A DNA stretch of 36,698 bases, taken from NCBI GenBank assembly GCA_016198745.1, contig JACQHZ010000199.1, positions 1-36,698 of the forward strand, in the 5' to 3' direction. The notes under the pieces were generated by a model that was not told the DNA's origin, searched no databases, and saw nothing but the letters and a program-made list of their open reading frames with translations. Numbering within the stretch: the stretch's first letter is position 1; every line of letters begins with the position of its first letter. Position numbers and translations under genes: made by a program. This DNA comes from Verrucomicrobiota bacterium. GTDB lineage: Bacteria; Verrucomicrobiota; Verrucomicrobiia; JABWAM01. Positions 1,631-26,636 of the stretch are shown in pieces.

Positions 1631-3481
1631 ATGCAACCCGTTCTCCTTGGCATCATGCTCTCACTGCCCCTCGCCCTCTGCTCTTGTGACCGTCGCGGCG
1701 GCACAACCTTGGTGAACAATGGCAAAACGGATTATACGATTGTCCTCTCGAACAAAGCATCTCCATCCGAAAGGCATGCCGCGAACGAACTCCGTCGTTT
1801 TCTGAAGGCTATCGCCGGCGTGGAGCTCCCGATTGTTACCGACCGGGACCCGCTGCCCGCCAAGATGATCCCTCTTGGCAAAAGCGCGGTCTTGGACAAG
1901 CTGAACGTCTCCATCGATTTCAACGATCTCGGAGACGAAGGATTCACGATTCGCACCGTCGGACCGCACTTGATTATTGCGGGTGGCCGATTAAGAGGCA
2001 CGATGTATGGAGTTTATTCCCTCCTTGAGGACGTCCTCGGCTGCCGGTGGTACACATCCAAGGTCAGCCATGTGCCAACCAAGCGCACGATCACCATCGG
2101 CGACCTGATGATTACGCAGAAGCCCAGTTTCGAGTACCGCGATCCATTTTATTACGATGCCTTCGAGGCGGATTGGGCGGCGCGCAACAAAGCCAATGGG
2201 ACTTACACGAAACTCGATAAACGCCGGGGCGGCAAAATGCTTTATGGAACCTGGTGTCACACTTTTTATATGTTGGTGGATCCCAAAATCCATTTTAAGG
2301 ATCACCCGGAGTATTTCTCCCTCATCAAGGGGAAACGCCGGTGGGATCTGGAATCACAGTTGTGCCTCACCAATCCGGAGGTGTTCAGGATCGCGCTTCA
2401 AACTCTCTCGGGATGGATCCGGGACAAGCCCGAAGCCAACGTGTTCTCCGTGTCGGCCAACGATGCGGACGGCCATTGCGAATGCGCCGCCTGCGCGAAA
2501 ATTGATCAGGAAGAAGGCAGTTGCGCCGGAACACTGCTCCGCTTCGTCAACGCGCTCGCGGACGAGGTGGCCAGGCAGCACCCGCGCATCATCCTTGACA
2601 CCCTGGCCTATGTGCATACGCTGAAACCGCCGAAGATCACCCGCCCCCGTCCGAACGTGAGAGTGCGGCTTTGTCCCCTGGAAGTCTGTCAGTACCATTC
2701 CTATGCGCAGTGCGAGCTTCAAGTCACCAAGGACTTCATGGCCCATCTGAACGGCTGGAGCAAGATCACCGGTAACCTCTATATGTGGCATTACGTGGCG
2801 CCCTACCATCACCTGATCCTGCCGTTCCCGGATCTGGACGAGATCACGACGGACGTGCCCATGTACAAACACATGGGCGTCAAAGGCGTGATGTTCGAGG
2901 GGAGTCACTGGCCGAATTCGGGCGAGTGGCTGGCGGAACTCAAGGCCTATCTCCTCGCCAAGTTGAGTTGGAACGCCAATGCGGACGCCAAGGCGATCAT
3001 CGCTGATTTTCTGAACGGATATTATGGCAAGGCCGGGCAACCGATCGGCGCCTGGCTGGACCTCCTGTGTGCGGAGGTGAAGCGGAGACCCAGGGTGCAT
3101 GGAACCTGCGGGCCGGAAGTGGATCTGATGCGCGACCGGGGCTTGGGCGTCGCGGACATTAATTGGCCAACCATGTACTGCCCGATTATGACCCCGGCCG
3201 TAATTGCGGAAAGCGAGCGTCTTTTGGATGAAGCGGAGAAACTGGCCGACACACCGGCGATCCTGGACCGGGTAAAACGCGTCAAACTGTCGCTGGAATA
3301 TGTGAGGGTGATGGAAACTGTCCAAAACGCCGCCCGCAGCGGCAATGCGGATGCCAGGACGGTTGCCCGGCAAAAACTGGACGCCTACTTCACCAAATTG
3401 GAATCGTTTGGCATCCAATATCTGGAACTGAGCGTTCCCCTGCGAAAAACATTCGATGAAATTGCCAAGCAACTCAAGTAG
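1631..3481 (+). CDS. DUF4838 family lipoprotein, probable secreted glycosidase-like protein
   Basis: A 616-residue protein. The N-terminus is a signal peptide ending in LALCSC, with Cys19 as the likely lipidated residue. Residues about 30-150 have the look of the GH20/GH67-type non-catalytic N-domain (ASPSERHAANELRRFLKAI; RGTMYGVYSLLEDVLGCRWY). The middle matches the DUF4838 pattern, with W-CHTFYMLVDP, HPEYFSLIKGKR and the Cys-rich CECAACAKID. DUF4838 proteins are common in polysaccharide-degrading PVC and Bacteroidetes bacteria and are presumed TIM-barrel hydrolases; the substrate is not known. The gene lies 24 bp after pseudopilin 1, most likely in the same operon. No strong Shine-Dalgarno is visible; the start was chosen because it gives the signal peptide. 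Confidence 0.8.
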   Translation: MQPVLLGIMLSLPLALCSCDRRGGTTLVNNGKTDYTIVLSNKASPSERHAANELRRFLKAIAGVELPIVTDRDPLPAKMIPLGKSAVLDKLNVSIDFNDLGDEGFTIRTVGPHLIIAGGRLRGTMYGVYSLLEDVLGCRWYTSKVSHVPTKRTITIGDLMITQKPSFEYRDPFYYDAFEADWAARNKANGTYTKLDKRRGGKMLYGTWCHTFYMLVDPKIHFKDHPEYFSLIKGKRRWDLESQLCLTNPEVFRIALQTLSGWIRDKPEANVFSVSANDADGHCECAACAKIDQEEGSCAGTLLRFVNALADEVARQHPRIILDTLAYVHTLKPPKITRPRPNVRVRLCPLEVCQYHSYAQCELQVTKDFMAHLNGWSKITGNLYMWHYVAPYHHLILPFPDLDEITTDVPMYKHMGVKGVMFEGSHWPNSGEWLAELKAYLLAKLSWNANADAKAIIADFLNGYYGKAGQPIGAWLDLLCAEVKRRPRVHGTCGPEVDLMRDRGLGVADINWPTMYCPIMTPAVIAESERLLDEAEKLADTPAILDRVKRVKLSLEYVRVMETVQNAARSGNADARTVARQKLDAYFTKLESFGIQYLELSVPLRKTFDEIAKQLK

Positions 3482-3497
3482 TTTTGACAGGACACCT

Positions 3498-3792
3498 ATG
3501 ACACCCAAAGAACGAATCACTGTGGCCCTGCGCGGCGGCAGGCCCGATCGCGTGCCGGTGACGCTCGGCCTGTCGGAGATGGTGCCGGTCCGCTATTGCA
3601 CGGATGACTACGTGCGGTTTCACTGGGTGGAGAAAATCCCGCTCTGGAAAGCCCGGGTGGAGATCGAACACGATCGGTTTGGCGCCGACGGGAAATGTAG
3701 ATCTGGCCGAGGTGAAGCGCGCCTTCCCCACGAAATCCGAGGAAAACCTGCGCGCGTTCGTCGAGGCTGGCCTGAAATACGGCCCGTATTGA
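3498..3792 (+). pseudogene. Truncated, frameshifted uroporphyrinogen-decarboxylase-family gene
   Basis: The ATG at 3498 begins MTPKERITVALRGGRPDRVP, the typical N-terminus of the URO-D/corrinoid methyltransferase family. The frame holds to FGADG (about 3694), then the homologous reading moves to the next frame as NVDLAEVKRAFPTKSEENL and ends at TGA 3790-3792. One extra base in the GGGAAA run explains the shift. The family is usually 340-400 residues, so only about the first 98 codons remain. The 17-bp spacing to the DUF4838 gene suggests it was once part of that operon. Immediately after it comes a fragment of an unrelated gene, so this is a deletion or recombination scar. Confidence 0.75.
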
Positions 3793-3793
3793 T

Positions 3794-3878
3794 ACGCACC
3801 GCCCCCGTTCCCATGCGAGACGGCTGTGTGCAGATCGTTGTTCCTGCTGGAAGTTGGAAGATGATCGTGTTGGAATGA
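3794..3878 (+). pseudogene. Orphan 3' end of a glycosidase-type gene, duplicated at 25457-25540
   Basis: These 85 bp encode a terminal segment like RDGCVQIVVPAGSWKMIVLE followed by TGA. Nearly the same DNA closes the remnant at 25100-25540 (RDGRVQIVVPEKSWKMIVLE); the shared stretch includes AGTTGGAAGATGATCGTGTT and the stop codon. The segment resembles the last strands of a C-terminal beta domain. It has no gene body of its own here and directly abuts the broken URO-D gene. Confidence 0.7.
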
Positions 3879-3881
3879 AAT

Positions 3882-5388: not shown

Positions 5389-6417
5389 AAAAAAATGAAG
5401 CGTGGCGGCACAACGTCCGGTTCGGCCTATCCGACCACGCCAACCCGCGTTACGCCAGAGGCTTCGGCGAGGCGAGAGCGGTTGGGCAAATATGAACAAC
5501 CTAAAAACCCAGTTTCCGGAGGCGCCCTTGACGGCGATCAATCATCAGTCACCAGTATCCCACCAATGAACGATTCACGATTTACCAGAAGACTAACCGC
5601 TGATTTCGCGGATGACGCGGATAACAACTCCGCTTCCCGCCTGCCAATCGGCGGGCAGGTCGCGAGGGCAGGCTTATTCGTGAAATCCCTGCCCGCAGAT
5701 TGGCAGGCGGGCGTGTTATCCGCGGTCAAAATTCAGCATTCAGTATTCCCACTCCGCATTCGGCATTCGGCATTCGGCATTCGGCAATCCTCATTCACCC
5801 TCATTGAGCTATTGGTGGTCATTGCCATCATCTCGATCCTGGCGGCGCTGCTGTCGCCCGCGCTCAAGAGCGCCCGCGACTCGGCGAAAAAGATTTTCTG
5901 CATGAACAACCTGAAACAGATCGGACTGGCGTTTCACATGTACGGCGACGATTACAATGATTGGATCAACCCCGGCCAATACCCCATCCGCTACAACGAT
6001 GGCTCGGTGCTCAACTTCCGTCCCTGGCATGAGCGGCTCGCGAAACTCGGTCCGCTCAGTCCTTGCGATTACGGGGTGAAATACAAGGGCGCCGTTCGGG
6101 AAGGGAATACGTTCATTTGTCCGTCGGAAAAAGGCGTGTTCACCTATCAGCATTACACCGGCAACGCCTGGATTCTGGGCGCCCAAAGCGATCCCAGCAC
6201 CTACGCGTATCATCGTTTCAGGAGTCTAACGGCCAATCCGACCGATGTGATTTTAATTACCGAAAATGCCGCTGTCGCGGACTACCTTTTCAGCACGGTG
6301 GGCGACAATTACGTGGCGTATCGTCACCACCAACGGGCCAACACGCTGTATGCCGACGGACGGGTTGCGGTCAAAACGACATCTGAACTGAATGCCGAGC
6401 GCATGGTGGGAAAATGA
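5071..6417 (+). CDS. Pseudopilin 2 inside a chimeric ORF (truncated propeller-like N-terminus fused to H-X9-DG pseudopilin)
   Basis: The ORF opens at ATG 5071 after an AAAGGA Shine-Dalgarno. Its first ~105 codons are a remnant of another protein (see 5071-5388). The rest is a pseudopilin: prepilin site [20 protein letters not shown] at 5794, then [21 protein letters not shown], and C-terminal [12 protein letters not shown] (H-X9-DG). The region between (about 5390-5790) is made of repeats read as protein. An internal ATG at 5566 would give a 283-residue product with a 76-residue leader and may be the actual pseudopilin start, although it lacks a clear ribosome site. A 43-bp stretch around 5834-5876 is identical to pseudopilin 1. 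The stop overlaps the next gene in ATGA. Confidence 0.75.
5616..5724. repeat. Nested inverted-repeat element upstream of pseudopilin 2
   Basis: Inner arms of 21 bp with one mismatch lie at 5638-5658 and 5689-5709 (core CGCCTGCCAATC and GATTGGCAGGCG). Outer arms of 11 bp, CGCGGATAACA and its complement, lie at 5616-5626 and 5714-5724. The element is transcribed and read through in the chimeric ORF as [15 protein letters not shown] and [13 protein letters not shown]. It belongs to the same CCTGCC/GGCAGG repeat style as the elements at 8665 and 12753. Confidence 0.8.
5726..5792 (+). repeat. Tandem CATTCGG/GCATTC repeat forming the pseudopilin 2 leader
   Basis: Short units GCATTCGGCATTCGGCATTC run up to the prepilin cleavage site at 5794 and are translated as [19 protein letters not shown]. 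Such leaders built from short repeats are a recurrent oddity of PVC pseudopilin genes. Confidence 0.75.
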
Positions 6418-9524: not shown

Positions 9525-10280
9525 ATGAAACACATCCGACTCATCATCGTCGGCATCCTGCTTGGAACGTTCCTCGGCCTTTCCTGCGTGGCAGAAGAGA
9601 GCAAGGCGCCCGTGGGTCACTGGACGTTCAACGAGGGATCGGGCGCGACGGTCGCCGACCTGAGCGGAAATGAAAACCGCGGCACGATGGCCAACTCTAT
9701 GCGGGCGGTGGCTTGGAGCGCCGGTCGCAATGGCAAGGCGCTGCGGTTCAGCGGATCGCAAACGAATCGGAACGCGAACGGCTGCGTCGTGATCCCCAAT
9801 CTGACCAACAAATACGATTTCGACCAGGGCATCACGATTGAGGCGTGGATCCAATTGGCGGCGGGCATGACCCGCGCGGGCAACTACGAGCTGGTTTCCA
9901 ACACGGAGAGTGATCGGGGAAAAGGTTTCCGTTTGCGCGTTGCGTGGAGCCGGTTGATGTTCGGTTCCGGTGAAGGCGGCGGCGATGGCAAGGTCTGGCA
10001 GGCCGCGTCCGCGCCGGCGCGGACGTCGATCAAACCCGAGACCTGGTATCATGTGGCCGGCACGTACGATGGCTCGGTTTTCAGGGTTTATCTCGACGGC
10101 GAAGAAGTGGGGGTAAGCGATCCGAATCTCGCCTTGACCAGGGGCCAGAAAGATGTCTTCATCGGCGCGTACTGCGGCGGTTACGCTTACGGGTTTGAAG
10201 GTCTCATTGATGAGGTCAAGATTTACGATCGCGCGCTCGCGCCCGCTGAAATTCTCACGCACGCCAAACTTGTGCCATGA
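9525..10280 (+). CDS. LamG/concanavalin-like secreted protein
   Basis: A 251-residue protein with a signal peptide ending near LGTFLGLSC (possible but weak lipobox). The rest is one LamG-like jelly-roll: VGHWTFNEGSGATVADLSGN, GITIEAWIQ, TWYHVAGTYDGSVFRVYLDG and FEGLIDEVKIYDRAL are the standard strand motifs. Such domains bind glycans. A good Shine-Dalgarno (AGAGGAGA) precedes the ATG. It lies between two glycosidase-like genes, the first separated by a REPIN, the second joined by an ATGA overlap, so it is probably the glycan-binding partner of these enzymes. Confidence 0.87.
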   Translation: MKHIRLIIVGILLGTFLGLSCVAEESKAPVGHWTFNEGSGATVADLSGNENRGTMANSMRAVAWSAGRNGKALRFSGSQTNRNANGCVVIPNLTNKYDFDQGITIEAWIQLAAGMTRAGNYELVSNTESDRGKGFRLRVAWSRLMFGSGEGGGDGKVWQAASAPARTSIKPETWYHVAGTYDGSVFRVYLDGEEVGVSDPNLALTRGQKDVFIGAYCGGYAYGFEGLIDEVKIYDRALAPAEILTHAKLVP

Positions 10281-12436
10281 ACGCGCTCCCCAGAAAAAGC
10301 GCCCGCAACCGGCCGGAATCGCCGCGGGTCAATTGGTGGGAGCAAGCGCCGTTGCGGATCATCGAAATCTGCAACAACTTGTGCCTCGACATGCTCTCCC
10401 TCAAAGACGAGGCGGCGGTCGTCAAACGGTTGGGCGCAAATGTGCAGCACTTCCATTGCATGCTGCACTCGGCCAAACAATTCGGCTCATTCGGGTTGGA
10501 TGATCGCGGGCTTTTCTTCAAGACCAGTCTGGCGATAAAGAAAAATCCGGACCGCCTGGGCAAATATCTGCCATTGGCGCGCAAAGCCGGCCTCCGGGTC
10601 CTCGTCTATTTCAATGTCCACTGCTACACGGCCGAGTTTGGCAAGCGGCATCCGGATTGGCTGCAGATCAAGGAGTGCGGCGCGCCCAAGGACGATATCT
10701 ATGATACCGGCGTCTCTTTTTGCGTCAACACCCCGTACCGGGAATGGGTGTTTCAAATTTTGCGGGATTTGTGCGCTTATGATATTGACGGCATTTTTTA
10801 CGATGGGCCGGTTTTTTTCGCCGACACCTGTTACTGTGATTCCTGCAAACAACGATTCGCGCAAACAACGGGCAAAGAACTGCCGCTGAAATCCGATCCC
10901 AGGAATCCGCTGTGGAAACAGATGGTTGCTTTTCAGTCCGCGAGTTTGGCTGAATTCTTGAAGGACTCCAACGCCGTCATCCAGGAGGCGAAGCCTGGGC
11001 TGCTCTTTTACATGAACGGCAACAGCAACTGGCCGTCCTGGCCCACGGCGCGCGACAACCATGCGATTGTCAAGCACACCGGCATCCTGGGCGCCGAGGG
11101 CGGATTCATCTACGGTGACCTGAACCAAACGCCCATCTATAAGCCGGGGATGGCCGCCAAACTGCTTTCCTCGCAGTCGGTCGGCCGACCATGCGTCGTT
11201 TTCAACAGCGCCGGACACAAGCCGTGGTCATGGTATCTCTTGCCGCGGACTGAGATCAGCTTGCTCCTGGCGCAAACCATTGCCCATGGCGCGCAGGCCT
11301 GGGTTCCGTTCTTCCCGCCCGATCTCAATCAACCGGAACTCGACGTTGTTGCGCGTTACAATGCCTTCATCAAGAAGCATCCCGACCCGTTCTTCCAGGC
11401 AAAGTCTCTCGCCAAGGTTGCCCTTTTGTGGCCGTCGCGCTCCGCCAACTTCTACAGTGGTTCATCCGTTCCCCTGACCGATTTTACCAAAGCCATCCAG
11501 AGGAAGGAGGTGGGCGATGTCAGCAAGGAGTTTGTCGGGTTCTATGAGGGATTGACGCGCGCGCAAACGCCGTTTGACGTGATGGACGAGGCGCATCTGG
11601 ATGATCTTGGGCGCTATCAACTGCTGCTGCTCCCCAACGCCGCTTGTCTTTCGTCCGACGACGTTGCGCGCATCCGGAACTTTGTGGCGAAGGGCGGCGA
11701 TCTGGTCGCCACGTTTGAGAGTTCGCTTTATGACGAGTCCGGCGCGCGGAGGGATGATTTTCAATTGCGCGATTTGTTCGGCGTTGCCTTTAAGGGAAGC
11801 ATTTTCGGCCCGATGCATTGGGATTACGTTTCCCCGGTCGTGAAGGCGCGCGATGCCTTTCTTCGCGGGATCACGCGGCGATTTGTTCCGGCCACAACTT
11901 ATGGCGCAAAGGTGGAATCCGCCAGCGGAACGGTTTCGCTGTCGTTCTGCGAAAAATTGAAGGGTTGTTATGATGATCTGCCGGACCTTTCGAACCTGCC
12001 CTTCTTGATCCGGAACAATTACGAAAAAGGGCGCGTGGTTTATCTGGCGGGAACATTTGGGGCGACGCTCAACAGCTTTCGTTTTCCCGAATATCTTCTG
12101 CTCGTAAGAAACCTGTGCAACGCCCTCAGCCGGCCTGCCGTCGCTATCGTGAACGCGCCGTGGGTTGAGGTCCAGTTGGCCGGCAAAAAGGACGCCGTAT
12201 TTCTTCATCTGATCAATCACGCATCCGGGCTGAAACGACCGTTAACCCAACTGCATCCGTTGGCCGAAATAAGGATTGAACTTCGTGAAATGCAAATTGA
12301 GAAAGCGCGCGCGCTCCGGCTGAACCGGAGCTTGTCATTGCATCGCTCGCGCAACCGAATGTTCCTGACTCTGCCGCGGCTGGATGATTATGAAGTCATC
12401 GCCATGCGCCTTCACAACCAGGTCTCGTCGGTTTGA
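10277..12436 (+). CDS. Glycoside-hydrolase-like protein (GHL6-type barrel plus GH42 trimerisation-like domain)
   Basis: A 719-residue protein with no signal peptide. The N-terminal half is a TIM barrel of the hypothetical glycosyl hydrolase 6 type, with DIDGIFYDGPVFF followed by the Cys motif CYCDSCKQRF, which may bind a metal. The second half is a beta-galactosidase trimerisation-like (GH42-M) domain: PFDVMDEAHLDDLGRYQLLL and VARIRNFVAKGGDLVATFES. The C-terminus is a small beta domain. A cytoplasmic or unusually exported oligosaccharide hydrolase is likely; substrate unknown. It overlaps the LamG gene in ATGA. A fragment of a close paralogue lies antisense at 24913-25044, and a distant paralogue is at 17274-19226. 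Confidence 0.78.
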   Translation: MNALPRKSARNRPESPRVNWWEQAPLRIIEICNNLCLDMLSLKDEAAVVKRLGANVQHFHCMLHSAKQFGSFGLDDRGLFFKTSLAIKKNPDRLGKYLPLARKAGLRVLVYFNVHCYTAEFGKRHPDWLQIKECGAPKDDIYDTGVSFCVNTPYREWVFQILRDLCAYDIDGIFYDGPVFFADTCYCDSCKQRFAQTTGKELPLKSDPRNPLWKQMVAFQSASLAEFLKDSNAVIQEAKPGLLFYMNGNSNWPSWPTARDNHAIVKHTGILGAEGGFIYGDLNQTPIYKPGMAAKLLSSQSVGRPCVVFNSAGHKPWSWYLLPRTEISLLLAQTIAHGAQAWVPFFPPDLNQPELDVVARYNAFIKKHPDPFFQAKSLAKVALLWPSRSANFYSGSSVPLTDFTKAIQRKEVGDVSKEFVGFYEGLTRAQTPFDVMDEAHLDDLGRYQLLLLPNAACLSSDDVARIRNFVAKGGDLVATFESSLYDESGARRDDFQLRDLFGVAFKGSIFGPMHWDYVSPVVKARDAFLRGITRRFVPATTYGAKVESASGTVSLSFCEKLKGCYDDLPDLSNLPFLIRNNYEKGRVVYLAGTFGATLNSFRFPEYLLLVRNLCNALSRPAVAIVNAPWVEVQLAGKKDAVFLHLINHASGLKRPLTQLHPLAEIRIELREMQIEKARALRLNRSLSLHRSRNRMFLTLPRLDDYEVIAMRLHNQVSSV

Positions 12437-12529
12437 GACATTAAGGCATGGCTTTGCCAGTGTTTCAAATTCCGCAGCGGCAACGTTGGCGCTTGCGAAA
12501 GCCGGGGGCAATCGGATAGGTAAATTCCC

Positions 12530-13099
12530 ATGGATCGAACCCAAGCCATCGTAATCCCTGCGCTCAATCGCGCCGAACTCCGCGAAATCGAAGTGCCCGC
12601 GCTTGAAGCGGGCGAAGTTCGCATCCGCACGTTGCACACTTTGTTAAGTATGGGCACGGAAATTTCCATTGCCACGGGCCAACGGATGGAGAGCGCCAAG
12701 TTCCCGTATGTGCCGGGCTACCAGGGCGTGGGCCGAATCGAAGCGTGCGCTGACCTGCCTGCGCCGCCTGCCCGCCGCCCGCCTGCTGCTGCGCGGGCAG
12801 GCTTGGCAGGCGGGTCGCGGCAGGCAGGTGGGGTGAAGGATTTCCGCGAAGGCGACCTTGTGTTGTTCCAGGGCGGGCGCGTGCTCCCGCCGCACCACGC
12901 CGTCTGGGGCGGGCATCAGGGCGTCGTGGTTTGCTCGACCTACGGTTTGTTTCGTTGTCCGCCGCAGATCTCTTTCAAAGTCCCGTTCGGTCCAAACAGA
13001 TTTTTTCCGAGACTGCGCTCGGGAAAAAAGGCTTCGCAACCCATTGCAGCCCAAAAGGTTTTTGAAACTTACGACCAACATGTTGGTTCTAATTTATGA
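12530..13099 (+). pseudogene. Truncated zinc-type (MDR) dehydrogenase with palindromic insert
   Basis: The ATG at 12530 follows GGATAGG at a normal distance. The first ~135 residues look like a medium-chain dehydrogenase GroES-like domain: LLSMGTEISIATGQRM, YVPGYQGVGRIEA, VKDFREGDLVLFQGGR. A 77-bp palindromic repeat is inserted in frame after GRIEACAD (translated LPAPPARRPPAAARAGLAGG). After GVVVCSTYGL the likeness ends: the Rossmann domain (about 200 residues) is missing, and the frame runs through unrelated sequence to a stop at 13099. It is probably a non-functional remnant of a sugar or polyol dehydrogenase at the end of block B. Confidence 0.7.
12753..12829. repeat. 77-bp nested palindromic repeat inserted in frame in the dehydrogenase
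   Basis: Outer arms ACCTGCCTGC (12753-12762) and GCAGGCAGGT (12820-12829) are exact complements, with inner arms GCCTGCCCGC and GCGGGCAGGC. It is a longer relative of the 8665-8693 element, and both are read in the same frame, starting LPAPP and ending RQAG. Confidence 0.85.
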
Positions 13100-13112
13100 G
13101 TAGCTGGACGGT

Positions 13113-14131: not shown

Positions 14132-14854
14132 ATGCACTGTCAATATACCAGGAGAGCAACGCATCGTGACAGGACTGGTTTGCACTACGGGGATCGACCG
14201 CGGTTATCAAGCAACCGGCCCGTTTGCGCTTTCACGCTCATTGAATTGCTCGTCGTGATCGCGATCATTTCTATTCTTGCAGCGTTGTTGTCGCCGGCGC
14301 TGAAGGCGGCGCGCGAACAGGGCCGGGCGGCAGTGTGCATGAGCAACTTAAGACAGATCGGCGCAGCCTGTCTGATCTATGTCAACGACAACAACGGGAT
14401 CACGGTTTCCTACTCTTTGGGGGCGGGGGGAATGTGGTATGACCTGTTGCACTCTTACCTGACGACCGCGAGCGACCCTAACCGTTACCCAAAAATCATT
14501 CAATGTCCATCCCACACTCCGGCGGAGGGCAGCGTGGCGGTTGTGAACCTGATCATCAATGGCGCGGTCGGACCGGACTATCAGGCCCTGCCCTACGGAC
14601 GTTCCGTCCGCGATGGCGCCAGCAATATCGAGTTGCAGAACCTGTCCGCCACGGCATGGTTCCTGGATGGCGGCATCACCGAAATCGCTTTCCGGAAAGA
14701 CCTCGAAAGCATCCCGATTTTCCGGAACATCGTCTGGCGGCATCGCAACGGCGTGAACGCGCTCTACGTCGACGGCCACGTCGGCTGGCGAGCGAAGAAT
14801 ACGGTGGATCTCACGGGCGGCAGTGGCACGGATGATTTCTGGGGCTGGCGGTGA
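14132..14854 (+). CDS. Pseudopilin 3 (prepilin signal, C-terminal H-X9-DG)
   Basis: A 240-residue pseudopilin. A 33-residue basic leader is followed by [20 protein letters not shown], with Glu at +5, then [21 protein letters not shown]. The C-terminus carries [12 protein letters not shown], an exact H-X9-DG motif. It differs in DNA from pseudopilins 1 and 2 and its leader is not repeat-derived. It is the first gene of block C, divergent from the AraC regulator and 7 bp before the six-hairpin-like gene, so it is expected to be induced together with the carbohydrate enzymes. Confidence 0.87.
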
Positions 14855-22381: not shown

Positions 22382-22416
22382 GGACTGTTATGAAATAACA
22401 TATACAAGTTTAGTGT

Positions 22417-22477
22417 GTGGCATAGCCGCCCCCGGCTGTGGTTCCCCTCGATGCACAGCCGGGGGCGGCTGTGCCAC
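22417..22477. repeat. 24-bp inverted repeat (GTGGCA-AGCCGCCCCCGG type)
   Basis: Arms at 22417-22440 and 22454-22477 match at 23 of 24 positions, with a 13-bp loop. It lies 36 bp after the block C stop and could end the transcript, although no T run follows. I recall similar GC-rich hairpins as dispersed repeats in Verrucomicrobiota. Confidence 0.85.
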
Positions 22478-22606
22478 ATTCCCCCATGTTGTAAAGGTTA
22501 TTATTTAATGGCCCTTAGCGCCCATCACACGCCGTCGCTTGCGGGTCTGAGGTAGCCCTTCGCCAGGCCGCCCCTCCCGACCCCATCGGTGTTAATTAAG
22601 GCGCTG

Positions 22607-22721: not shown

Positions 22722-23450
22722 ATGCTCCCGACCCTCATGACCACCCCTTTCGCCGCCATCATCGAACGTCCCATCCCGCCCGTTGCGGGGATCGACCTGG
22801 AGCAGGCGCTGAACTACGTGGACAGCCGCGGGCTGCCTCTGGAGTGGTTTTATACGTCGTTCACCTGTCCGCGCACCTTCTACCGTCCCGGCTCGCGTCC
22901 GCAACTGGCGGAATTCATCCAGCGTCAGAATCTCGATCATGGCCGGAATGTGGCGACGGTGCGGGCGGTGCTCCAGGCAGTCAACCAGGGTGTCCGGCAT
23001 GCCTGCTTTTTGAACCGCCCCGTGCCGGCGGACCGCGGTCTCACGGAAGAAGGCCTGCTGGAATCCAGCTGCGGCTGGTGCAATGAACAGGCCCGGGTCG
23101 CGGTGGCGCTGTCCCAGGTGGTCGGCATTCCGTCGCGCCTCGTGTTCGCCAGCATGAAGACCGGACGGGGCCACGTGATGTCGGAGTTCTATATGGACGA
23201 GCGCTGGGCCTTGGCGGACCAGACGATCGGCTTCCTGTTCCAGACCCCTGCGGGCGAAACCGCCAACGTCCTCACGATCCGGACCGCGCCCGCCCTGGCG
23301 GACGAGATCAACGCGTTTTACCGGGAGGCGCTGCTGGCAACCCGGCCGCTGGCGCCGAACCCCGCGCAGTGGGACGAAAGCTTCACCTACATCCACAAGC
23401 CGCTGGAGCTTTTCCACCACGTCGGCTACTGCAACTACTTCGTGCATTGA
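22722..23450 (+). CDS. Transglutaminase-like (papain-fold) protein
   Basis: A 242-residue protein with the transglutaminase-like core: SCGWCNEQARVAVALSQVVG (candidate Cys), GHVMSEFYMDERWALADQTI (candidate His and Asp), and VVGIPSRLVFAS. The order Cys-His-Asp and the spacing fit the bacterial transglutaminase superfamily, which includes peptidases and amide hydrolases. A second in-frame ATG at 22737 (MTTPFAAIIERP) is an alternative start. No signal peptide. It precedes the lyase-like gene by 17 bp, so it is likely its operon partner, but the substrate is unknown. Confidence 0.78.
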   Translation: MLPTLMTTPFAAIIERPIPPVAGIDLEQALNYVDSRGLPLEWFYTSFTCPRTFYRPGSRPQLAEFIQRQNLDHGRNVATVRAVLQAVNQGVRHACFLNRPVPADRGLTEEGLLESSCGWCNEQARVAVALSQVVGIPSRLVFASMKTGRGHVMSEFYMDERWALADQTIGFLFQTPAGETANVLTIRTAPALADEINAFYREALLATRPLAPNPAQWDESFTYIHKPLELFHHVGYCNYFVH

Positions 23451-23467
23451 CTGATCGGGCCAAACCA

Positions 23468-24937
23468 ATGATGCAACCAACGCCGCATCTCCTGGACAAG
23501 CGCAGCCCCAAAGGGATGGAGATCTACCAGTTGACTGGCGAACCAACGATCCCGTCGGCCCATGTGTACATGGAGGCCCAGATTTTCACGCCGGACTCGA
23601 AGCGGTTCGTGCTGCATCGCTCCGCCCATGCCCACGGCAGCGACCCGCATGATCCGGAGCACCGGTACCTGCTGTGCGATCTGGAGAACAACGGCCGGCT
23701 CACGCCCCTGACCGAGGAAACGGGCGCGACCGCGCCGTCCGTGACGCCGGACGGCAAGCACCTGTACTACTTCGCCAACGAAACGGAGGTGGGTGGCGGA
23801 CGGTTGATCCTCAAGCGAGTCAACCTCGACGGCACCGACCGGCAGACCATCCTGGCGGTGGACGCGCCCTTGCCGGGCACGCGGTTTCGTCCCAGCCGGA
23901 TCCCCCCCCTTTCCACGATTTCCTCGGACGGCAAACGGCTGGCGTTGCCGGCCTTCCTTGGCGACGGACGGACGGAGGATCCGCCCTGGGGCCTGATGGT
24001 GTTCGATCTGGAAAAGGCCCGCGTGGCGCTCATTCTGCACGGGACGACATGGGGCAATCTTCATCCTCAATACAGCCGCTCGCACGACCCGGAGCGCGCG
24101 CATGACCTTCTCATCCAGGAAGACCATGGCAACCGGTATGCGCCGGACGGCCAGGTGCTCCAGCGCCATGCGGCTGCGATTGATCAAGACCCCCGGCGTT
24201 GTGAAGAGGCTGACGTCCTGGGCCTTGCCCCGGCGCAGAGTTACTCGGGGCTGGCGGCGGACATCCACGTCATTCGCGACGACGGGACGAACCTCCGGAC
24301 CATGCCGTGGGGGCGGGACGGCAACGAGAAATGCCAGGGGCACCAATGCTGGCGGGGACGCAACGAATGGGCCATCACGTCCACCATGACCCATCGGCCG
24401 AACAGCTACAGCCTGATTGAGTCACTGGCCGTGCCCGTCGCCGGCCATGCCGGAGCGCGCGCGCCGGGCGGAATTCGCAACGTGCTGAGCCGGGAGATTT
24501 GCCAGCCGTGGTTCTATCACTTCGCGACGGACATCGAAGGCCATCGGTTCATCAGCGACGCCATGCCTCCCGGTCAGCCGGCCGAAATCCACTTTGGCGC
24601 GCTGGGCGAACCCGGCCGGGACCCGCTACGTCTGCGTCGTGTGCTCACCGCACGCGGCCCGGTCCGCAAGGAAACCCAGATGCATCCCTTCCTGTCGCCG
24701 GACGGCAAACTGGGTTTCTTCAACTCGGACGAGTCGGGAATCCTTCAGGCCTACCTGATCAAGGGGCTTGATGCCCTGCCGCTCAATCACGACGCCTTTG
24801 TCAGGGTGGTGCGGCAGGCACTGAGAAGCGCACCGGTTGTTGAGGTTTTAGCCGCCAAACCTAATCGCTACGTGATACCGACGTTTCTTCGTTCAAATCG
24901 TAATGGCCGGGTGACTCCGAAAAAATCGCGCAACTGA
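23468..24937 (+). CDS. Oligogalacturonate-lyase-like (PL22-type) seven-bladed propeller, C-terminus probably altered
   Basis: The protein (489 residues from the ATG at 23468) is TolB-like, with blades such as PSVTPDGKHLYYFANETEV, STISSDGKRLALPAFLG and MHPFLSPDGKLGFFNSDESG. Metal-ligand-rich segments NLHPQYSRSHDPERAHDLLI and NEKCQGHQCWRG fit the oligogalacturonate lyase (PL22) family, which cleaves unsaturated pectin oligomers. The normal end should be close to GILQAYLI (about 24760). The last ~50 codons have no propeller look, and the final ones run into the antisense GH42-M-like remnant that begins at 24913, so the 3' end seems to be a rearrangement product. The assignment to pectin is inference. 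Confidence 0.65.
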   Translation: MMQPTPHLLDKRSPKGMEIYQLTGEPTIPSAHVYMEAQIFTPDSKRFVLHRSAHAHGSDPHDPEHRYLLCDLENNGRLTPLTEETGATAPSVTPDGKHLYYFANETEVGGGRLILKRVNLDGTDRQTILAVDAPLPGTRFRPSRIPPLSTISSDGKRLALPAFLGDGRTEDPPWGLMVFDLEKARVALILHGTTWGNLHPQYSRSHDPERAHDLLIQEDHGNRYAPDGQVLQRHAAAIDQDPRRCEEADVLGLAPAQSYSGLAADIHVIRDDGTNLRTMPWGRDGNEKCQGHQCWRGRNEWAITSTMTHRPNSYSLIESLAVPVAGHAGARAPGGIRNVLSREICQPWFYHFATDIEGHRFISDAMPPGQPAEIHFGALGEPGRDPLRLRRVLTARGPVRKETQMHPFLSPDGKLGFFNSDESGILQAYLIKGLDALPLNHDAFVRVVRQALRSAPVVEVLAAKPNRYVIPTFLRSNRNGRVTPKKSRN

Positions 24938-25044
24938 AAATCATCCTTCCTCTCGCCGGACTCATCATAAAGCGATCTCTCAAATGTGGCGACCAAGTTG
25001 CCGCCATTCGCCACAAAGTTCCTGATGCGCGCGACGCGCGCATC
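24913..25044 (-). pseudogene. Fragment of a GH42-M-domain glycosidase gene (paralogue of the 10277 gene), antisense
   Basis: On the - strand this reads VARIRNFVANGGNLVATFER and SLYDESGERKDDFQLRDFFG, nearly the same as VARIRNFVAKGGDLVATFES and SLYDESGARRDDFQLRDLFG in the 719-residue protein at 10277. Only about 44 codons remain. It points the opposite way to all its neighbours. Confidence 0.85.
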
Positions 25045-25101
25045 TTCTGCCTGGTCTCCGACGGCGAATTGCACGAGGACGCGACCTGGGAGGCGGCAAT
25101 G
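25033..25101 (+). pseudogene. Fragment of a transketolase gene (thiamine-diphosphate motif)
   Basis: On the + strand this reads ARIFCLVSDGELHEDATWEA, matching the transketolase N-terminal subunit segment around the cofactor GDGE motif (GDGELNEGxxWEAA in the family). Only about 23 codons survive between two other remnants. The junction with the antisense fragment lies in a GCGCGC repeat, consistent with microhomology joining. Confidence 0.6.
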
Positions 25102-25540
25102 GGGCTTGATCCAGCAGATGCTCGTGTACGGACGAAACAAGGAATCCACCGACAGCGTGCTCGCCACCTTCCTGCCGCTCGGCCTCGCGGACAACCTCTG
25201 GCACGGCTGGATTGACGAGCAGCGGCTGAAGCAGGTCTGGGCGATCCAGGATGCGTTTCATTGCGAGGAGGCGGAGTTCGTGCCGTATTGGGACTCCGCG
25301 CGCGAGGTGACGACCTCGCCTGAATTGAAGACGTTGGTCACAAGTGTGTGGCGTCGAAACGACAAGCGGCTGGCGGCGGTCTGCAACCTCGGCGAGCAAG
25401 CGTGCAAAACCACCCTTCAACCGAAGAGAGCGGTCCAGTCGGCGGTGGACGCCGAGACGCACAGCCCCGTTCTCGTGCGAGACGGGCGCGTGCAAATCGT
25501 TGTTCCCGAAAAAAGTTGGAAGATGATCGTGTTGGAATGA
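25100..25540 (+). pseudogene. C-terminal remnant of a glycosidase-type protein
   Basis: From the Trp codon at 25100 the frame reads GLIQQMLVYGRNKESTDSVL, LPLGLADNLWHGWIDEQRLK, AEFVPYWDSAREVTTSPELK, RRNDKRLAAVCNLGEQACKT, and ends in a beta segment VQIVVPEKSWKMIVLE plus TGA. This is the layout of the end of a large GH-like protein: helical face, then a C-terminal beta domain. The N-terminal half is absent and no start codon with a ribosome site belongs to it. The last 84 bp are duplicated at 3794-3878. I cannot name the family with certainty. Confidence 0.65.
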
Positions 25541-25604
25541 AATGACAAACTATAACTTCTCAGGTTGCCAGGGTTCAGGGGTTCAGCGGTTGATAATCAC
25601 AGAG

Positions 25605-26102
25605 ATGAAAGCGGCAATCCTCCACAAGCCGGGCGAGTTGGAAATCGCCGGCATCCCCACGCCGCGCCCCAACGATTATCAGACGTTGGCACGCATGGAG
25701 GCGTGCGGGGTTTGCTCCGGAACAGACACGCACATCTGCGAAGGCACGATGCCGTTCCCGATTGATTACCCGAGCGTGTTCGGCCACGAGGGCGTGGGTA
25801 CGGTTGTGGAAACGGGCCGACGCGTCTGCCGATACAAATTCGGCGACCGCGTTCTCCGTCCGTGCGCCATCTATCCGGGCCAGTGGGTGAACGGTCTGGG
25901 GTCGAGTTGGGGCAGCTACGCCGAGTACGGCCTCGTCACCGATCTCGACAGATGGCGCGAGGAACAAACCAACCCCGGCATCAAACGCAATACCTGCCGC
26001 ATCATTATTGAGGCCGGCGGCGCGTGCAAAAACCGCGTTGGCTGGAATGGGGAAAGAGCCCGCACAAAGAGTATTGCAGTTTTCGTGCGAAGGGATTATT
26101 AA
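25605..26102 (+). pseudogene. Truncated zinc-type (MDR) dehydrogenase, second copy type
   Basis: From ATG 25605 the frame reads MKAAILHKPGELEIAGIPTP, ACGVCSGTDTHICEGTMPF, and VFGHEGVGTVVETG: a threonine/sorbitol-dehydrogenase-like GroES domain with the catalytic zinc Cys and GHE residues intact. Likeness ends near WGSYAEYGLV (about residue 110). The remaining ~50 codons do not look like the family and the NAD-binding domain is missing, so the product is probably not an enzyme. It is truncated at a point similar to that of the dehydrogenase at 12530. Confidence 0.72.
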
Positions 26103-26126: not shown

Positions 26127-26636
26127 ATGAATTCTTCATCCAGCGTCACCTACGACTCGAAAATCGAGGGCAACCTCGTGGTCACGAGCGCCAACGCGGC
26201 GATCAACTGGGTGCGGAAAAATTCGCTTTGGCCCATGCCGTTGGGACTGGCCTGTTGCGCCATCGAACTGATGGCCGCCGGCGCCGCGCGCTTCGACATC
26301 GCCCGCTTCGGGGCGGAGGTGATGCGGTTCTCGCCGCGACAGGCCGATCTTCTGATTGTGTCCGGCACGGTGACGTACAAGATGGCCGCCGCCGCAAAAA
26401 GAATCTACGACCAGATGCCTTCCCCCAAGTGGGTGATCGCCATGGGCGCCTGCGCGTCCAGCGGCGGGATGTACCGCAGCTACGCGGTTCTCCAGGGCAT
26501 TGACCGCCTTTTGCCGGTGGACGTTTATATCTCCGGTTGTCCTCCGCGACCGGAGGCCCTGCTGGATGGCTTGATGAAAATCCAGAAAAAGATCGAATCC
26601 GAACCCGCCCTGCGGCGGCTCAAGGTGGCTTTATGA
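26127..26636 (+). CDS. nuoB: NADH-quinone oxidoreductase subunit B-like protein (orphan)
   Basis: A 169-residue NuoB-family protein, close to normal length. The N2 iron-sulfur cluster cysteines are present: the [12 protein letters not shown] pair, [10 protein letters not shown] and [13 protein letters not shown]. The family motif [20 protein letters not shown] is also there. NuoB carries the terminal cluster that reduces quinone in complex I, or the equivalent in membrane hydrogenases. Unusually there is no nuoA, nuoC or nuoD beside it: upstream is a dehydrogenase remnant and downstream a FecR-domain gene, with which it overlaps in ATGA. The ORF track start (26115, TTG) is less likely than ATG 26127. 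Confidence 0.85.

Follow-up and report, generated by a model that had tools for sequence, protein, structure and literature searches.

Remnants of unrelated genes lying side by side between a PD40 gene and nuoB in a Verrucomicrobiota genome

Clusters of gene remnants that arise through gene decay are well known, as described for Rickettsia (PMC2374718) and in a survey of 64 genomes (PMC522871). The locus described here is like those clusters in that truncated genes of unrelated functions adjoin each other, with intact relatives elsewhere, and in that short pieces remain after deletions; it is a clear member of this known kind and not a new system. The variable ORFs listed for Rickettsia include type I restriction-modification products (PMC2374718), to be compared with the fragment called E below. 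Unlike the known clusters, the sources are here mostly glycan-use genes, some of the pieces derive from paralogues still carried in the genome, and the present host, unlike that of Rickettsia-type clusters, is not known to be host-restricted. Our literature search gave general pseudogene papers, and none was found on such a locus in Verrucomicrobia.

The window, i.e. the whole stretch of DNA that was analyzed, comprises 36,698 nucleotides and makes up the entire contig C110 of a 6.43 Mb assembly in 522 contigs, which is 74% complete with 3.1% contamination. Sequence comparison showed that positions 24770–26030 hold pieces of at least five unrelated genes within about 1.2 kb, one of them antisense. 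The features of this stretch and its two boundaries are as follows.

23369..24937, + strand: PD40 gene (beta-propeller, oligogalacturonate-lyase-like) that has lost its stop codon; PD40 Pfam match at 2.3e-10
24770..24913, no strand assigned: stretch of 144 nt between the PD40 gene and fragment A, weak matches only
24914..25036, − strand: fragment A, central part of a gene for a GHL6/GH42M glycosidase; 108/123 nt agree with window 11784-11662
25024..25036, + strand: microhomology GATGCGCGCGACG at the A/B junction; 11/13 between the two source genes
25024..25102, + strand: fragment B, GDGE region of a gene for the N-terminal half of transketolase; 73/79 nt (92%) identical to C513:33504-33426
~25109..25540, + strand: fragment C, C-terminal ~143 codons of a GH123_N-like glycoside hydrolase; GH123_N at 6.3e-6
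25553..25592, + strand: degenerate end of a dispersed element (TAACTTCTCAGGT and GTTCAG repeats), 40 nt; 95% to contig C505, 88% to contig C288
25605..25967, + strand: fragment D, codons 1–121 of a gene for a zinc-dependent dehydrogenase; ADH_N at 6.1e-15
25961..26030, + strand: fragment E, from the interior of a type I restriction hsdR gene; DNA and protein matches
26127..26636, + strand: intact nuoB, the right-hand boundary; NuoB equivalog PRK14815 at 3.6e-97, over cut-off

The four remnants that a first-pass annotation had named, corresponding to A–D, were thus all present, with matches not attributable to chance. That list was, however, incomplete, since the dehydrogenase piece ends near 25967 and is followed by the 70 nt of hsdR, which had been missed; the disturbed stretch furthermore starts near 24770, upstream of the earlier limit at 24913. 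At this left-hand side, homologues of the PD40 gene are 58–67% identical and their alignment ends at about 24769 (window codon 466–467). The four homologues with readable ends stop directly there, while the frame in the window continues for about 55 codons into fragment A. Protein matches to 24770–24913 reached only E ~0.02, to unrelated or antisense frames. As to the right-hand side, the idea that a housekeeping region begins there was not borne out, nuoB being alone here, as in the same-family genome G002 and seemingly in G003. It lies solitary beside a FecR-type gene (26127-26636; L011, L012), outside any nuo operon; an adjoining nuoC is apparently absent in G002 and G003, and several other relatives have nuoB followed by nuoC.

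Fragments A, B, D and E each correspond to a portion of a longer intact gene and break off within it; fragment C was compared with distant relatives only. Fragment A, which also gives weak LBP_M/GH42M Pfam matches, resembles the intact GHL6/GH42M gene of the window itself (10277-12436, 88% identity), and the gene on contig C513 that matches fragment B is a Transketolase_N gene (Pfam 5.7e-40). Fragment C covers positions 851–921 of the 969 in the GH123_N profile and aligns at about 30% with the C-terminal end of genes of about 1000 aa on contigs C301 and C363, and its last 90 nt (25454-25543) recur at 3791-3881, 85% identical. Fragment D retains its start codon and is, from Met at 25605 to about 25967, 55–57% identical to intact 344-aa genes in two other genomes (G239 and G274), whereupon homology stops in mid-gene, at codon 121. 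For fragment E the DNA identity was 74–79% over 61–70 nt in four genomes, with 37 nt at 86% in a fifth, and at the protein level two ORFs, of 975 and 1050 aa, were 57% identical; one of them, in genome G030, gives matches to EcoEI_R_C and ResIII. Neither C nor E had a close intact source in the assembled part (74%) of the genome.

The fragments are not linked by any one frame that would give a plausible product. Fragment A is antisense and, because B and C lie in different frames, no fused protein is made; judged from sequence, the fragments likely lack any function of their own. A frame of 184 aa (24986-25540) is open across part of the locus and could be taken for a real composite protein, but it reads A and B in the wrong frames, it has a protein match over C only, and its C part lacked a homologue at E 1e-15 in other genomes of a 286-genome class sample. 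With these frames, and with no conserved fused protein in relatives, a composite functional gene was rejected as exceedingly improbable.

How the pieces came together is best studied at the A/B junction, which is the only junction of the mosaic with both source sequences known. The first-pass annotation had suggested a GC-rich microhomology at one junction, and this was confirmed at 25024-25036, where the GH42M source reads GATGCGCGCAACG, the transketolase source GATGCACGCGACG and the window the 13-mer listed above, with the letters of the window switching from the first source to the second inside the shared sequence. Simulated random joins of the GH42M and transketolase genes gave at least 11/13 in ~2.6e-4 of cases, or about 1 in 4000. 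The D/E join is compatible with a short shared stretch as well, to judge from the two parents, both of which read Glu-Gln there.

On contig C513, a GH42M paralogue stands beside the transketolase gene, divergently, in the same order and orientation as A and B. This GH42M copy has itself collapsed, since sequence matching window 10316-10865 runs directly into sequence matching 12347-12414, a loss of 1.48 kb, and the join is TCGCGCAA, an exact 8-nt repeat (8/8). We regard this collapse as the strongest evidence for short-homology deletion in this genome; candidate internal deletions with overlaps of 6–13 nt were also seen in G001, a same-family genome that was sampled. Short direct repeats are known to give rise to deletion by illegitimate recombination or replication slippage, and both the C513 repeat and the 11/13 of A/B are like such events in having short shared sequence of which one copy is kept. 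In distinction to them, both parents are known for only two junctions here, the other junctions being deduced.

Formation of the remnants through deletion and joining is supported by the short homology that A and B share at their join and by the agreement in gene order with C513. We consider it fairly likely that a glycan-use region was worn down by serial deletions, several of them probably at short homologies, leaving the pieces side by side. At the outset this region would have been redundant or transferred; one deletion after another, a number of them probably joining short and nearly identical sequences, would have reduced it until all that was left from the PD40 gene to nuoB was a row of gene pieces that had not been adjacent before. 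We infer that the pieces were at one time parts of a single uninterrupted stretch, and that they were joined by deletion rather than by insertion. As a comparison locus for the undeleted state, C513 supplies the A/B neighbour pair only. Three of the pieces are just 70–123 nt long and enclosed on either side, which would take several deletions with closely spaced ends.

Those same lengths could instead suggest that short gene pieces were copied into a single break by template switching or end joining, with short homology guiding the copying during repair or stalled replication and with the fragments never having been together beforehand. Microhomology-mediated template switching and filler-DNA insertion are known to join short pieces with short homology, as seen here; A, B and E have unrelated DNA on both flanks, A and B resemble genes still in the genome, and short homology fits capture and deletion alike. 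However, A and B have diverged by 8–12% from their nearest copies with some third-position bias, and are hence not recent copies, and an actual gene pair on C513 shows the order and orientation that they have; divergence and order together favour deletion of an old neighbourhood. Furthermore, a search of the assembly, 74% complete, for the Ku family PF02735 gave no match, whereupon Ku-dependent end joining was rejected. Taken together, we find copying into one break unlikely.

The differences to the surviving copies at codon positions 3/1/2 were 9/4/2 for fragment A, 3/2/1 for fragment B and 21/13/7 for the C513 copy compared with the window gene, which are too few sites for dating the breakage. 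Because of this excess at third positions, the copies probably accumulated part or all of their differences while they were still working genes, ahead of their decay. Divergence also bears upon whether reads from different strains or loci were falsely joined, as might be suspected for a fragmented, incomplete and partly contaminated assembly with repeats at many contig ends. No fragment is identical to its source, though, and the 8–15% divergence fits such an artefact poorly; B and E are shorter than one read, joins at 13 imperfect bases are not normal for assemblers, and comparable fragments occur on C513 and in G001. An assembly artefact therefore seems highly unlikely.

Fragments D and E may come from outside this genome. 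The closest homologues of D belong to uncultured Verrucomicrobia MAGs of the same class, and a wider contig scan with the dehydrogenase gave the same two MAGs together with distant Paenibacillus and Clostridia genes. An alternative is a failed recent horizontal transfer, by which glycan genes from another lineage were broken on or soon after arrival. In line with that, the close relatives of D occur in genomes of another family (G239, G274) but were absent from the four same-family genomes sampled, an hsdR fragment is typical of mobile regions, and bacterial pseudogenes are enriched in transferred genes (PMC522871). Against it, relatives of A and B are present within this genome, no tRNA lies beside the locus, no integrase was seen among the window genes scanned, and the composition is not strikingly different. 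We hold such a transfer to be possible yet doubtful; it overlaps with the wearing-down by serial deletions that we prefer, a reading that makes no claim on where the decayed region came from. Insertion linked to a tRNA was rejected, with no tRNA in the window.

The earlier suggestion of deletion and joining thus stood, whereas that of a hot spot at the border of the glycan region did not, with further remnants being found inside that region as well as on C513. The two additional sites in the window are these.

3498..3881, + strand: second remnant site, with a weak URO-D-like start, a 31-codon tail and a tail of fragment-C type; 85% to 25454-25543
12530..13109, + strand: third remnant site, with the first part of a further zinc dehydrogenase, an insert of CTGCC-rich repeat and a dispersed repeat; bchC/PRK10083 N-terminal matches

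The URO-D profile start at the former site is weak (E 0.26). The dehydrogenase at the latter resembles, by inspection, the dehydrogenase gene of G239 that directly precedes the intact relative of fragment D, so that two neighbours of one operon type seem to persist here as stumps with 12.5 kb between them. Nor was a hot spot supported by the density of low-copy short duplicated fragments, as self-comparison of sampled sequence gave a mean of 21 pairs per 585 kb here against 31 in G001, counting all short low-copy similarities rather than proven remnants and with this same-family genome as the only control; an unusual fragment density in this genome was accordingly rejected.

Several repeat families were noted in the window. 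A CTGCC/GGCAG-rich palindromic repeat (12437-13112), in frame inside the dehydrogenase stump at 12530-13099, has copies on many contigs, often at contig ends, and the same holds for a second repeat around CCAACATGTTGG near 13070-13109. An intergenic palindromic repeat at 22414-22505 (TGTGGCATAGCCGCCCCCGGCTGTG / CACAGCCGGGGGCGGCTGTGCCACA) has copies on C513 and other contigs. Three copies of a conserved leader of DUF1559/N-methylation (pseudopilin-like) genes are found at 952-1128, 5788-5944 and 14220-14361, and this leader family is present in high copy across the genome.

A further family is that of short elements, 94–253 bp, bounded by an inverted 13-nt end, TAACTACTCAGGT ... ACCTGAGTAGTTA, of which the window has an example at 25553-25565. 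The 13-nt end has 82 exact copies in this genome, where its reversed control has 0; the four further family genomes that were searched have none, and the genomes G030 and G050, both unrelated, have 16 and 10, respectively. Paired ends were located as follows.

L060:7631-7803
L083:7077-7202
L085:14525-14764
L092:7250-7343
L093:118-370
L106:1570-1690
L107:9151-9281

The interiors of these elements are unrelated palindromic sequences, being REP sequences of CATTCCCGC type or sequences of TGGCACAGGCGTCCC type or CTGTAGGC type, while a fourth type has GTTCACGG arms around a small ORF, MKIERFEDIEAWQLARELTRRVHHLT, which may resemble a four-helix-bundle (S23/IVP) protein. At G147:C51:29969-32527, opposed exact copies of TAACTACTCAGGT lie 2559 bp apart, an interval whose length would be compatible with an autonomous transposon. 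When a sampled sixth of the present genome was searched for IS66-type proteins with a simple motif, no convincing match was obtained. Among the papers searched, none was found that prints the 13-nt motif as the end of such an element, and the elements are arguably more novel than the remnant locus.

One such end lies at the C/D junction, and these elements are possible helpers of fragment capture. The mosaic would in that case have formed by short-homology capture from elsewhere, as part of an ongoing, possibly element-aided, scattering of 50–250 nt fragments throughout the genome, which we judge to be quite improbable. Should the fragments have been copied in, fragment shuffling in bacteria could be studied with this lineage as a model.

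With regard to annotation, the short ORFs at 24986-25540, 25542-26102, 3456-3878 and 12530-13099 are likely remnants and should be kept out of gene counts. Under the serial deletion that we favour, the locus would display, in one readable stretch, the piecemeal loss of redundant genes in large glycan-degrading genomes.
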